A stretch of 64,000 bases of DNA from Desulfatiglans anilini DSM 4660 (GTDB lineage Bacteria; Desulfobacterota; DSM-4660; Desulfatiglandales; Desulfatiglandaceae). The position numbers and the translations under genes are program-made. This document shows positions 13,545 through 54,055 of the stretch, in pieces (positions within the stretch are counted from its first letter, which is position 1; every line of letters starts with the position of its first letter). Below the pieces are notes generated by a model that searched no databases, was not told the DNA's origin, and saw only the letters and a program-made list of their open reading frames with translations. The stretch lies in assembly GCF_000422285.1 (NCBI RefSeq), contig NZ_AULM01000001.1, positions 62,001 through 126,000 of the forward strand, read 5' to 3'.

Positions 13545-14966
13545 ATGGCAAGACGATGGAGTTGTTTCGTGGTATGGACCGCGCTGATCTTCGTCGGATG
13601 GATGGGGACGCATGCGGGCGCGGCCGGTGAGGTGGGCCAGGAGGAGCTGCTCGAGCGCCTCGACGCCTTGACCAAGTTGATAGAACAGCAGCAGCAGGAA
13701 ATCGAGCGGCTGCGGCGGGAGGTCGAAAATCAGCGCGGGGCGATTACGCGCGTCGAAGAGACGCAGACCCGGGTCGAAGAGACCCGCAAGGCGGAGGTTC
13801 AAGAGGCCGTGGCGACCGAGGTCGACAAGCAGGAGAGCAGCTGGAAAGACTCTATCCCGCGATGGATCAGGACCATGAAGGTTTCCGGGGATCTGCGTCT
13901 CCGCTACGAAGGCATCTACGGCCGGGGCGAGACCCAACCGGACGGCTCCGTGAAGGATCTGCCGAATCGCGACCGGTTTCGACTGAGGGCGCGCCTGTTT
14001 TTCGATGGGGATATCACCGAAGAGGTTTCCACGCACTTCATGATCTGCACCAACCAGGACGCAAACCGGGAGGCGACGACGACCAATCAGAGTTTCACCG
14101 ACGACTTCAACGACAAGGGGATCTACCTTCATCGAGCCTACGCCACTTACGAGCCCAAATGGCTGCCGGGCCTCGAGCTGACAGGCGGAAAATTCAAGAA
14201 CACCTTTCTGCACACCGACATCATGTGGGACCCGGATGTGAACCCGGAGGGATTCTATGAACGTTATCGGTATGCGGGCCTCAAGCATTTCACCCCGTTC
14301 GTTCAGTTCGGGCAGATGGTGGTGAACGAGGTCAAGAACGAGAGCGACGACGCGATGCTCTACATCTACCAGGCCGGCTATGTGTGGGAGGCGGGCGCCG
14401 TGAAATGGACCATGGCGGGCAGCTATTACGACTGGTCCAACCTCCAGAATTCCAAATACCTGCACACCGCGGATTATGCGGGCGGCGGCGGTAATACCTT
14501 CGTGCTGGACGACAAGGGAATGCTCCAGTATGCCTATGACTTCAACCTGTGGGAGGCCTATACGACCGTCGATTTCACGGTGAAATCCCTGCCGGTTCAG
14601 CTCCTGGGGGACTACATCGTCAATGTGGCCGACCGGGTTCCCAGTGATGAGGATTCCGCCTACTATGCGGGTTTCCAGGTGGGCAAGGCCAAGAAGAAGG
14701 GAGAGTGGGCGGTCACTTACAAATATGCGCGGATCGAGCGGAACGCGCTGATAGGCTCCATGAACGATCAGGATTTTTATGGGGCGAACCGAAAAGGGCA
14801 CAAGGTCAAAGTGATGTTCCGCCCCTTGAATCATGTCCGCTTCGATATGGCGTATTTTTACACCGACCCGGTCAAGGACTGGGACCCGAGCGACATCACG
14901 TTCAACAAGAACAAGGAGCGTATGCACGAAGACAGAGTGCAGGTGGACTTGATCTTCGACTTCTAG
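13545..14966 (+). CDS. Putative outer-membrane porin (beta-barrel with N-terminal coiled coil)
   Basis: A signal peptide (MARRWSCFVVWTALIFVGW, cleaved after AGAAG) is followed by a heptad-rich coiled coil at about residues 35-95 (LERLDALTKLIEQQQQEIERL). A stretch of alternating beta strands then ends in Phe, the typical sorting signal for outer-membrane barrels. It resembles the putative porin families common in Desulfobacterota. I chose ATG 13545 because GGAGG lies 9 nt upstream; the ATG three codons earlier abuts that site. Solute is unknown. Expression is probably under sigma-54 control. It is convergent with asnS across a copy of the intergenic repeat. Confidence 0.82.
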   Translation: MARRWSCFVVWTALIFVGWMGTHAGAAGEVGQEELLERLDALTKLIEQQQQEIERLRREVENQRGAITRVEETQTRVEETRKAEVQEAVATEVDKQESSWKDSIPRWIRTMKVSGDLRLRYEGIYGRGETQPDGSVKDLPNRDRFRLRARLFFDGDITEEVSTHFMICTNQDANREATTTNQSFTDDFNDKGIYLHRAYATYEPKWLPGLELTGGKFKNTFLHTDIMWDPDVNPEGFYERYRYAGLKHFTPFVQFGQMVVNEVKNESDDAMLYIYQAGYVWEAGAVKWTMAGSYYDWSNLQNSKYLHTADYAGGGGNTFVLDDKGMLQYAYDFNLWEAYTTVDFTVKSLPVQLLGDYIVNVADRVPSDEDSAYYAGFQVGKAKKKGEWAVTYKYARIERNALIGSMNDQDFYGANRKGHKVKVMFRPLNHVRFDMAYFYTDPVKDWDPSDITFNKNKERMHEDRVQVDLIFDF

Positions 14967-14969
14967 CGG

Positions 14970-15115
14970 GTTTCCGACCGGAAAGGGTCTTTCTGCCCAA
15001 TCTCTGCGTCAATCTGCGCGGTTGCTCGTGCGGCGCACGATTCGTGCGCCTTCGCGCAAGTGCTTGATTTCCGTGATCCTGGCCAAGCCGGGACCCGCCC
15101 GGTGGCGCTGGGGCT
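14970..15115 (+). repeat. Modular intergenic repeat, copy 1 (left arm + core + decayed insert unit)
   Basis: The left arm (TTTCCGACCGGAAAGGGTCTT) begins at about 14971. The core with a near-perfect hairpin GGCGCACGA/TTCGTGCGCC is at 15032-15050. CAAGCCGGGACCCGCC begins the inserted unit, which then decays. The right arm is missing. The copy sits between the convergent porin and asnS stops and may act as their terminator. Confidence 0.7.
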
Positions 15116-24370: not shown

Positions 24371-24835
24371 ATGGCCTGTTCAATCCTGGTGGTTTATCAC
24401 TCCCAGGGAGGCAACACGCGCAAGATGGCGGAAGCCGTTGCGGCTGGTGCAGGAGAGGTGGAGGGTGTCCGCGTGGTTCTGAAAGAGGCCTTCCAGGCTA
24501 CGCTTGCGGATCTGGTTGACTGCGACGGACTGGTCCTCGGCTCGCCCGAGTATTTCGGGTACATGGCGGGGGCGGTCAAAGATTTCTTTGATCGAACCTA
24601 CGAATCCGCCAGAGTCGAAAGAAAGGTTTTCAAGAAACCCTATGCGGTCTTTGTCAGCGCCGGGAACGACGGGCGAGGCGCTCTTGCGGCGATCGAGCGG
24701 ATCTGCATCGGTTATCCACTCAAGAAGGTCTGTGAGGCGGTCATCGCCCGCGGAGAATTGACGGAACAGAACCTGGCGCAGTGCCGCGAGTTGGGGCAAA
24801 CGGTGGCGGCCGGCTGTGATGCAGGCATCTACTAG
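24371..24835 (+). CDS. Flavodoxin-like protein
   Basis: FMN-binding flavodoxin fold of 154 aa. The phosphate-binding loop is YHSQGGNTRKMAEAVAAGA at residues 8-26, and the isoalloxazine loop is GSPEYFGYMAGAVKDFFDR. The C-terminal part (SAGNDGRGALAAIERIC) resembles NAD(P)H-quinone/WrbA-like members more than classic electron-transfer flavodoxins. The ATG at 24371 has GGGGGAG 8 nt upstream; the frame is open further back without a ribosome site. Its TAG stop lies inside one copy of the 8-bp direct repeat that flanks repeat copy 2. Confidence 0.85.
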   Translation: MACSILVVYHSQGGNTRKMAEAVAAGAGEVEGVRVVLKEAFQATLADLVDCDGLVLGSPEYFGYMAGAVKDFFDRTYESARVERKVFKKPYAVFVSAGNDGRGALAAIERICIGYPLKKVCEAVIARGELTEQNLAQCRELGQTVAAGCDAGIY

Positions 24836-24838
24836 CCA

Positions 24839-25061
24839 GTTTCCACCCGGAAATGGTCTTTTTGGCCAATCTCGTCGTCAATCTGCCCGTTTGTTTGTGC
24901 GGCGAATTACAATTCGACTCAGCGCAACCGATTGATTTTATTGGTATTGACGAGCAAAGGGCTGCTGCGAAGCGTTGGGGCTGAGCACCTGCAGGGTGTG
25001 AAGAAAAAATCCTCATTCCCGGATGGAAACTGGGTTCTACCGAGAAACCATTTCCGGATGG
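24839..25061 (+). repeat. Modular intergenic repeat, copy 2 (complete, one insert unit)
   Basis: The left arm TTCCACCCGGAAATGGTC is followed by the core CAATCTGCCCGTTTGTTTGTG with a palindrome GGCGAATTACAATTCGACT. One insert unit (GCTGAGCACCTGCAGGGTGTG) and the right arm (TCATTCCCGGATGGAAAC, ending in CATTTCCGGATGG) complete it. The octamer CTAGCCAG flanks it at 24832-24839 and 25065-25072, like a target-site duplication. It fills the space between the convergent flavodoxin and DUF1178 genes. Confidence 0.75.
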
Positions 25062-25181
25062 CTGCTAGCCAGCCTGCAGCCATTCAGGTTCCAGGCGATC
25101 AGGGCGCGCCGAGAAGAAACCGGTTCCGATGGCATTCATCGGGGTCGAACCTGGTCTCAAAGGCCCGCTGCATGAAGAAAA

Positions 25182-33868: not shown

Positions 33869-34131
33869 CCATCGAAATCCAGTTCAGGCTCCACACCGGT
33901 AAAGAAGGGTTTTTCTTCACACGCTGCGCGTGCGCAGTTCCACCCCTTCGCGGCGGGTCCCGGTTTCTTCACACCTTTCGGGTGCTCAGTCCCACTCCTT
34001 CGGGGCGGGTTCCGGCTTGTCCCCTATCAAGGAAAGCGAGCGTTTGTGCGTAAGCGCCAGATGAGCCGTCGCACAAGCAGATCTGCCCGTTGGCGTCGAA
34101 AGGGGAAAAAAGATCATGGCAGGATGGAGTC
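33869..34131 (-). repeat. Modular intergenic repeat, copy 3 (complete, reverse orientation, two insert units)
   Basis: Read on the minus strand, the decayed left arm (at 34099-34131), the core with CTTGTGCGACGGC and CACAAACGCTCG, and two insert units (GACTGAGCACCCGAAAGGTG and a relative) lead to the right arm ending at 33869. The copy starts only 4 nt beyond the stop of the Mut7-C gene. The rest of 33626-34135 holds the dodecin promoter and no gene. Confidence 0.7.
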
Positions 34132-34660: not shown

Positions 34661-34931
34661 CACCTGGTCGAGGAAGTGACCCGGGCGGGCCGGCTGGTTG
34701 GGGGTGTAGGAGTTCGCCCCCGACGGGCAGGAGGACTTGGGCAAGAAGAGGACATGAACGGGGTCCGGAATAGCGGAGAGTCCGAGCTTCAGACGCTCGG
34801 GTGCAGACCGTCCGGAGACCCTGCTGAAAGGCCAGGCGCCTGGCTCTGGGCCGAAGGCTGCTCTCCAAGACCCGGGCGGGGGTGGAAGGCCGCGTGCGGG
34901 TCGGTTTGAGGCGCCAAGCGGCTGTGATGAA

Positions 34932-35104
34932 CTTTCCATCCGGGAATGGTCTTTATTAGCCAATCTCGGCGTCAATCTGCACGTTTGCTTGTGAGGCGAC
35001 CTGCAGGTCGCCTCAGCGCAAACGCTTAATTTCCTTGATATTGGCTAAAAATCCTCATTCCCGGATTGGAAACTGAGTCCCACCGCGAAATCATTTCCGG
35101 ATGG
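34932..35104 (+). repeat. Modular intergenic repeat, copy 4 (complete, no insert unit; reference copy)
   Basis: The left arm TTTCCATCCGGGAATGGTC continues to TAGCCAAT. The right arm begins ATTGGCTA and reads back as its near-perfect complement over about 32 bp. Between them GTTTGC/GCAAAC and a perfect 22-bp palindrome (left half GAGGCGACCTG) form the inner stem. The distal end ATTTCCGGATGG is a further inverted copy of the arm. GAACT occurs on both flanks. It ends 23 nt before murA. Confidence 0.8.
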
Positions 35105-35127
35105 ATACGAACTATGAGGAAACCAAA

Positions 35128-36384
35128 ATGGAAAAGATGGTAATAGAAGGCGGCCGCCCCCTCCGAGGGGCGGTTTCCGTGAGTGGAGCGAAAAACGCCG
35201 CCCTTCCGATTATGGCGGGCTGTCTTCTGGGGGGTGGGCGGCATGTGCTGCGAAATGTCCCCCGGCTGCGGGATATTTCCACGATCGTCAGGATCATGGA
35301 GCAGTTGGGGGTGCGCTTCGATGAGGGCGAGGATTTCCTGGGGGTGGACGCCTCGGATTTGAGCGGCTATGAGGCCCCCTACGACCTGGTCAGGACGATG
35401 CGCGCCTCGATCCTGCTGCTCGGCCCGCTTCTGGCCAGGCAGGGAAAGGCAAGGATTTCTCTGCCCGGAGGCTGCGCGATCGGAGCCCGGCCGGTCAATC
35501 TGCATCTGCGGGCGCTGGTGGCCATGGGTGCGGATATGCATCTCGATCAAGGATATATCCACGCCACGGCCGGCCGGCTGAAAGGGGCCGATATCTTTTT
35601 CGACATCCCCACCGTGACCGGCACCGAAAACATCATGATGGCTGCTGTACTGGCGGAAGGCCGGACGGTCCTGCGGAATGCCGCCAACGAGCCCGAGGTG
35701 AAAGATTTGGCGGATCTGCTGCGTGCGATGGGGGCGCAGATCGAGGGCGACGGCGGGGACATCATCACGATCGAAGGGGTCGAGAGCCTGAAGGGCGTCG
35801 AGCATACCATCATTCCGGACCGGATCGAGACCGGGACCTTCATGATTGCCGCGGCGATGACGGGAGGGGATGTGTCGATCAGCGGCTGCCGGCCGGAACA
35901 CGTGGGCGCCCTGATGGAGAAGCTCAAGTCCGCGGGGGTCGGCGTGGAGGTCGTGCCGGGTTGCATCCGCGTACAGGGCTCCGAAGAGATCCGCGGGGTG
36001 GATATCAAGACCATGCCTTTCCCGGGTTTTCCGACGGATCTGCAGGCGCAGTTCATGGCTCTGATGTGCGTCGCCCGCGGGTCGAGCCTCATTCGCGAGA
36101 CGATTTTCGAAAACCGGTTTATCCATGTGAGCGAGCTCAAGCGGATGGGCGCCGACATCGAAATCAACGGCAACCAGGCGCTGGTCAGAGGGAGGGAGCG
36201 TCTTTCAGCGGCCCCGGTCATGGCAACCGACCTGCGTGCGAGCGCCTGCCTGGTGCTGGCGGGCCTGGCCGCCGAGGGCGGCCGGACCGAGGTCAGCCGG
36301 ATCTATCACCTCGACCGGGGCTACGAGGCGCTGGATGTGAAGTTTCAGGGCCTCGGCGCTGCGATCTGGCGCGAGAAAGAATGA
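35128..36384 (+). CDS. murA: UDP-N-acetylglucosamine 1-carboxyvinyltransferase
   Basis: First committed enzyme of peptidoglycan synthesis; adds enolpyruvate to UDP-GlcNAc. Lys22 in SGAKNAALP and the active-site loop [15 protein letters not shown] with Cys116 are present. The cysteine predicts fosfomycin sensitivity. The rest follows the inside-out alpha/beta barrel fold, 418 aa. ATG 35128 follows GAGG at 8 nt; the frame is open further back into the repeat. It is the first of a murA-comEC-radA run on the same strand. Confidence 0.95.
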
Positions 36385-45337: not shown

Positions 45338-45429
45338 ACCGAGGGGTCACCGCCGGCCCGCTCCAGTGGCGCCGGCAATCTCCAAGGCTGCTCGGCCGGC
45401 TGGCCGCGGGCATTCTCTTGCCGGGTTCC

Positions 45430-45550
45430 TGCCAGCGAAAGGCTGGGACTGAGCACCCGAAGGGTGTAAAGAAACCGGGACCCGCCGCGAAGCGGTGGGA
45501 CTGAGCACCCGAAGGGTGTAAAGAAACTTCCCTGTTGTTGGATTGGAAAC
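45430..45550 (+). repeat. Modular intergenic repeat, copy 5 (two insert units, arms mostly lost)
   Basis: Two tandem insert units are nearly identical: GGGACTGAGCACCCGAAGGG twice, joined by AAACCGGGACCCGCCGCGAAG. Only a remnant of the right arm (TTGGATTGGAAAC) follows. It lies between smc and ftsY, so it would be carried in any smc-ftsY read-through transcript. Other parts of 45338-45694 have no recognisable feature. Confidence 0.7.
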
Positions 45551-51817: not shown

Positions 51818-51952
51818 CAGCTATCCGGAAGGTGTGAAGAAACCGGGACCCGCCACGCAGGGGTGGGACTGAGCACCCGAAGGGTGTGAAGAAAAATCCC
51901 CATTTCCGGATTGGAGACCGGGTTCTACCGGGAAATCATTTCCGAATGAATG
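51818..51952 (+). repeat. Modular intergenic repeat, copy 6 (one and a half insert units + right arm)
   Basis: A partial insert unit (GGAAGGTGTGAAGAAA), a full one (GACCCGCCACGCAGGGG, then GACTGAGCACCCGAAGGG) and a complete right arm (ATTTCCGGATTGGAGACC, ending GAAATCATTTCCGAATG) are present. The left arm and core are missing. It lies between the divergent histidine kinase and aminotransferase genes. Confidence 0.7.
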
Positions 51953-53988: not shown

Positions 53989-54055
53989 CACCCTTTCCCG
54001 CAGGGGCGGGACGGAGCACCGGCAGGGGGTGAAGAAACGGGGACCCGCCCCTGAG
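53989..54055 (+). repeat. Modular intergenic repeat, copy 7 (insert units only)
   Basis: GCAGGGGCGGGACGGAGCAC and GGGGGTGAAGAAACGGGGA with CCCGCCCC resemble one and a half insert units. No arms are visible. The fragment lies between the convergent aminotransferase and MFS genes. Confidence 0.5.

Follow-up and report, generated by a model that had tools for sequence, protein, structure and literature searches.

A foldback segment of DNA lies in the leader of murA in Desulfatiglans anilini DSM 4660, and its parts recur between other genes of the window, that is, the whole stretch of 64,000 nucleotides that was analysed. An earlier note on this DNA left its nature between a non-autonomous element and a dispersed structured-RNA cassette, and the questions raised by the locus are what kind of element it is, how it could have spread and why its fold is kept. 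The best reading is that of an ancient family of non-autonomous elements with a conserved foldback core.

The reference copy and the other copies of the window

The whole element (176 bp, plus strand) extends from 34933 to 35108, as established by the alignment of copies and by an empty site in G039, a complete chromosome from the same genus which is syntenic with contig C1 of D. anilini at about 94% identity. The segment had been recognised at the right place, with limits (34932 and 35104) that the comparison of copies replaces by 34933 and 35108. Both ends are GTnTCCATCCGGAAATG: the left terminal inverted repeat (TIR), TTTCCATCCGGGAATG, occupies 34933-34948 on the plus strand, as seen from the copy alignment and the TIR counts, and the right, outer one, which reads GTATCCATCCGGAAATG on the minus strand, occupies 35092-35108 (exact match, C1:97092-97108). 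On the right, the target duplication GAACTA (35109-35114) follows and, 13 bp beyond it, the start codon of murA (35128-36384, plus strand; TIGR01072, 563 bits). On the left, a remnant of the duplication, GAAC, is found at 34929-34932, three bases (TAG) being absent from the GAACTA plus G expected from the empty site.

The foldback claimed for this segment was confirmed in its main parts. The arms 34933-34967 and 35037-35071 pair over 35 nt at 77%, and the distal end does repeat the arm (35092-35105, 93%). The inner GTTTGC/GCAAAC belongs to a central hairpin at 34982-35024 (plus strand), supported by fold and covariation, in which CGTTTGC/GCAAACG flank a palindrome that is perfect, as claimed, and measures 24 bp (34992-35015) instead of 22 bp. 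Folding of 34932-35104 gives a predicted free energy of -75.0 kcal/mol, and the covariance model described below matches 34932-35073 with 129 bits.

The six further loci of the window are also real, being either islands or arrays of the B cassette alone. On the plus strand, a second A-type copy with B material after it lies at 14970-15108 (island about 14946-15108; covariance model, 62.3 bits), and an A-B-C copy with one B cassette, also matched by the covariance model, at 24839-25062 (island about 24831-25062); the interior of the latter is strongly different at the orthologous site of G039. A degraded A copy is found on the minus strand at 34017-34128. The remaining three, all on the plus strand, are a C-type right end preceded by B material (51887-51950), two tandem B cassettes (45428-45526, C1:107428-107526) and a single B cassette (53993-54037, C1:115993-116037), the last two loci having no recognised A.

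Modular organisation

The element is a gene-less foldback of 140 to about 350 bp, whose interior is made up of three modules in the order A-B(n)-C. Module A (about 115 bp) comprises the left end and the long hairpin. Module B (about 51 bp, CCGGGACCCGCCGCGAAGCGGTGGGACTGAGCACCCGAAGGGTGTGAAGAAA and variants) is itself composed of two small hairpins and is present in 0-3 tandem copies; its arrays hold one copy in 35 cases, two in 18 and three in one, and 64 of the 74 B units lie inside elements. Module C begins with an inner copy of the end that is one base longer (GTTTCCAATCCGG) and continues with a 36-bp unit that terminates in the outer end. The reference copy is of the A + C type, without B cassette; its inner TIR-like copy lies at 35057-35073 on the minus strand, 36 bp inside the outer end, and its module C runs from there to 35108. 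The 36-bp unit is sometimes multiplied in G039, and G308, a genome from another family, also carries this unit, with the same spacing and the extra base of the inner end.

At C1:86831, 348311 and 354396 the insertion point and the outer ends are the same as in G039, with very different sets of modules and with internal duplications or deletions. Modules are turned over at fixed insertion sites.

Copy number and placement

The survey of the D. anilini genome covered contigs C1-C3 and part of C4. In the 1.24 Mb fully read, 112 islands of the element were found (about 420 genome-wide by extrapolation), representing 1.58% of the DNA and 10.7% of the intergenic DNA; the element thus fills about a tenth of the intergenic DNA of its genome, the murA leader included. 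Over the D. anilini genome, the 16-bp TIR, with up to two mismatches, was counted 252+241 = 493 times (a figure that includes the inner end copy) versus 1+1 = 2 times in the reversed control, and 40 near-full copies are at least about 85% identical to the reference, so that a chance origin is ruled out. Where tens of intergenic copies would have counted as support, tens to hundreds were found.

The intergenic location described earlier also holds on this scale: among 94 islands, 2.1% lie mostly inside predicted genes, versus 86.7% with random placement, the genes being predictions of a purpose-made codon-usage gene finder. By type of gap, 51 islands lie between co-directional genes, 29 between divergent and 9 between convergent ones. 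The orientation relative to co-directional neighbour genes shows no significant bias (32 same, 19 opposite, p = 0.09).

Evidence for mobility

Target duplications and empty sites both speak for a non-autonomous element. The duplication is of 6 bp and TAnnTA-like; a duplication of 8 bp was considered and rejected, as the outer G and C are bases of the element. Although a clean duplication is absent from most copies, agreement in at least five of the six bases was observed for 18 of 71 elements in D. anilini (shuffled, 1.0), 12 of 55 in G039 (shuffled, 1.05) and 23 of 28 in G032, a genome from another genus (shuffled, 6.5).

At the reference site, G039 presents the empty sequence GTGATGAACTATGAGG, whereas D. 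anilini has GTGATGAAC and GAACTATGAGG on either side of the element. The element at C1:246072 is also missing from G039 and, conversely, three G039 elements, with duplications GAATTC, TAAGGA and GAAT[G/T]A, are missing from D. anilini. Of 41 C1 sites comparable with G039, 18 are filled with the same length, 18 are filled with another length and 5 were counted as empty, some of these being partial losses only; therefore most insertions predate the split of the two species and a few are newer. At shared sites the interiors are 84.5% identical and the flanks 92.3%, which suggests either conversion between copies or a faster change of the interior; interiors more diverged than their flanks are not accounted for by a plain MITE model.

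The partner insertion sequence

A transposase with the same terminal repeats had also been proposed as worth seeking. A contig scan with a single transposase gave no match. The partner was sought by searching six genomes with Pfam DDE_Tnp_1 and then examining the candidates for the ends. In this way, three autonomous-type insertion sequences of 1.69 kb, with ends (GTTTCCATCCGGAAA) common to the small element, were found in G039. Their transposase (455 residues) belongs to the ISNCY family (NF033593, 438.9 bits, cut-off 325) and contains the domains PF01609 and PF05598. One of the three reading frames is interrupted by a stop, and a clean duplication (TAAATA) accompanies one of the three copies. 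Except for the ends, the interior of the insertion sequence has nothing in common with the MITE. More distant copies from other lineages have related ends, with duplications TAATTA or TAGCTA. The ISNCY group includes an ISDol1 subfamily (PMC8147514).

A second line of evidence comes from G032, which has about 240 end matches, all part of a uniform 142-bp element. One of its contigs starts with the last 31 residues of the transposase (87% identical), followed by the end GTGTCCATCCGGAAAT, which is the end variant of the small elements of G032 itself. The end variants co-occur on both kinds of element: GTTTCC on the MITEs and insertion sequences of the D. anilini genus, GTGTCC on the MITEs and the insertion-sequence fragment of G032.

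There is good support for regarding the element as a MITE whose matching partner is of the ISNCY type, given the shared ends, the target duplications, the empty and filled sites, the intergenic placement and the insertion sequence of the sister species, all of them observed. We infer that a transposase of the G039 type is what actually moves it. In the D. anilini assembly no intact transposase was detected, but only a 24-residue relic, which makes present mobility in this genome doubtful. Long TIR pairs in the 1.24 Mb were also considered as autonomous copies, and the four candidates (1.2-3.6 kb) were rejected, as they hold host genes instead of transposases. No MITE of an ISNCY element was found in the literature searched, which excluded most subscription journals.

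Some minor observations concern these insertion sequences. In G039, one copy of the small element (L154:2161-2336) and an intact copy of the ISNCY sequence are about 60 bp apart. The sequence SOJY01000103.1, labelled Candidatus Bathyarchaeum, encodes an ISNCY transposase that shares 67% identity with the G039 enzyme, a result of misbinning or transfer. A second type of insertion sequence, whose reading frames span about 261-335 aa and which has an end-like GTGCTTATCCGTAAATAAA nearby, is present in D. anilini (C1:211286) and in G039 (L131, L152); it is also found at the ends of contigs C14, C15 and C76 of the D. anilini assembly and is a probable cause of assembly breaks.

Conservation and covariation of the core

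In the 82 A modules of D. anilini, 24 pairs arranged in three helices are paired in 87.2% of cases, as compared with at most 40.7% when the pattern is slid. The helices were named by hand, RNAalifold on A1 having given 4 pairs only because of misaligned loop columns. The compensatory stem changes by which the earlier note would have had the fold judged are present: 54 double-change cells were counted versus 18.6 +/- 3.8 after shuffling (0 of 500 shuffles), a test in which the relatedness of the sequences can inflate double changes. Across five lineages, double changes amount to 108 versus 42.6 +/- 5.2 (0 of 500); here the paired percentage is favoured because the structure came from folds of the same sequences, the double changes less so. 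The four pairs beside the central stem differ by lineage, being AATC/GATT, GGGC/GCCC or AGAC/GTCT.

A covariance model built from 23 sequences matched 50 of 198 genomes of the phylum at E <= 1e-4. Since these hairpins give up to 48 bits from their antisense strand alone, as compared with 76-136 bits for the sense strand, only the stronger matches were relied on (best E <= 1.5e-13), which comprise 30 genomes from 21 families. Twenty matched regions from 15-odd families all contain the same core of 141-143 nt, with ends that vary (GTTTCCATCC, GTGCCTGAACGAAAAC, GGYTACCTCTAAAAATTG); several matches in other families likewise have other ends, and the exact ends alone are found in only 12 of 297 phylum genomes. 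The interior of the G032 element had been taken as unrelated, which was rejected when the cross-lineage alignment showed the same core. No match was obtained in phage and plasmid collections. As the core foldback is old, phylum-wide and joined to several end sequences, its pairing has been long maintained, which the covariation shows.

Origin and role of the fold

Very probably, the small element is a MITE that an ISNCY-family DDE transposase mobilises in trans; the fold is most likely kept for the benefit of the element itself. Under this mechanism, the transposase would recognise the GTnTCCATCCGGAAAT ends and act in trans, and transposition would duplicate a 6-bp TAnnTA-like target. Module A folds back, B cassettes expand in tandem and C repeats the end with one base added. 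The foldable DNA or RNA form may help the element by efficient transposition or by harmlessness beside genes. A REP/BIME-type origin, in which a RAYT (Y1) transposase acts on extragenic palindromes, would also account for intergenic palindromes in hundreds of copies, but is highly improbable in view of the 6-bp target duplications and of long TIRs common to an element whose transposase is DDE and not Y1; moreover, REP elements measure 20-40 bp (PMC3733652).

The meaning of the covariation is where the explanations diverge. The core could be a structured regulatory or trans-acting RNA, transcribed from neighbouring promoters and acting in leaders such as that of murA, with the transposon ends as a mere vehicle. 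Covariation of the stems is seen both in the genus and between lineages, the core of about 141 nt is conserved in at least 21 families though the ends change, the sense strand scores well above the antisense, and a relative is annotated as a predicted short RNA in Geobacter (PMC2700814). A consistent sense-strand signal was, however, not found when G-U and A-C intermediates were compared: the GU fraction is balanced in the 82 copies, 0.46 (0.39-0.54), and low over 20 lineages, 0.38 (0.32-0.43), while the value of 0.61 in set A3 accompanies a structure defined by the fold of that very strand. With orientation to genes lacking a significant bias and Rfam giving no match, we consider the RNA explanation unlikely. 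The same symmetric counts would be expected if covariation came from templated correction of a quasi-palindrome by replication strand-switching, or from the copying of a few master elements, and had no functional meaning; the elements are near-palindromic, and relatedness can inflate the shuffle tests. This possibility deserves real weight but is somewhat doubtful, as pairing persists across lineages with replaced stems, such as the three versions beside the central stem, and the length of the core is nearly fixed. Tentatively, and with rather low probability, the core might instead have been selected for its fold throughout the phylum, several unrelated transposase systems having carried it as its ends were exchanged; if so, it would be a long-lived functional cassette, in the form of RNA or of a DNA hairpin, able to switch vehicles. 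Returning to the MITE with its own use for the fold, a role of the core in the spread or tolerance of the element is preferred, with modest confidence, to a regulatory RNA of the host with a fixed orientation.

Relation to known elements

MITEs are usually regarded as genus-level, short-lived derivatives of one insertion sequence. A single foldback core over at least 21 families, with several types of end, contrasts with this view; what is unusual here is the age and spread of the core and the exchange of ends. The element also lends itself well, as a clean system, to the question of why a non-autonomous element retains its fold.

The MITEs Nezha and RUP depend for their movement on a resident insertion sequence that acts in trans (PMC3049150, PMC10969869). 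Like them, the present element is a gene-less foldback, intergenic and of high copy number, with TIRs common to an insertion sequence and a target duplication; unlike them, it has an interior conserved phylum-wide with covarying stems, several end sequences, a modular plan and a link to an ISNCY-type insertion sequence. The BOX element of Streptococcus pneumoniae follows the plan boxA-boxB(n)-boxC (PMC3049150), to which A-B(n)-C with tandem middle modules corresponds, a likeness in plan only. Both also have inverted-repeat ends resembling an insertion sequence, target duplications and many intergenic copies, but in the present element C repeats the end and the partner insertion sequence is different.

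The earlier statement that no named family matches stands as far as Rfam is concerned (no match at the gathering threshold and no credible one at E <= 1), but Geobacter has a relative, which was listed among predicted short RNAs as a family without a name (PMC2700814). According to that paper, Geobacter metallireducens has 24 intergenic 'predicted short RNA elements' with a central palindrome GRCGTAGCGCTGCTACGCC, annotated upstream of genes, and such elements also occur in other Geobacter and in Desulfotalea. Since this palindrome is multicopy in phylum genomes matched by the model and lies inside the same core (up to 113 bits), the Geobacter family, Gmet_R1005, is apparently a branch of the same family, on sequence grounds, and the 'predicted short RNAs' of 2009 would thereby be tied to a mobile-element explanation; mobility and a phylum-wide core are not mentioned in the available part of the published text. 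Among 24 palindrome-bearing loci of the phylum, most were matched over the palindrome at E <= 0.01. The palindrome GRCGTAGCGCTGCTACGCC is absent from D. anilini, which has a different one at the same place of a homologous core. Unlike the D. anilini element, many GRCGTAGCGCTGCTACGCC copies lack GTnTCCATCCGG ends, and in some of the loci with the palindrome the ends, CAGGTTGTTGAAAAAC, are of quite another kind. In four such loci (L271, L278, L281 and L285), ends CAGGTTGTTGAAAAAC or similar are combined with the palindrome and with core motifs common to the family.
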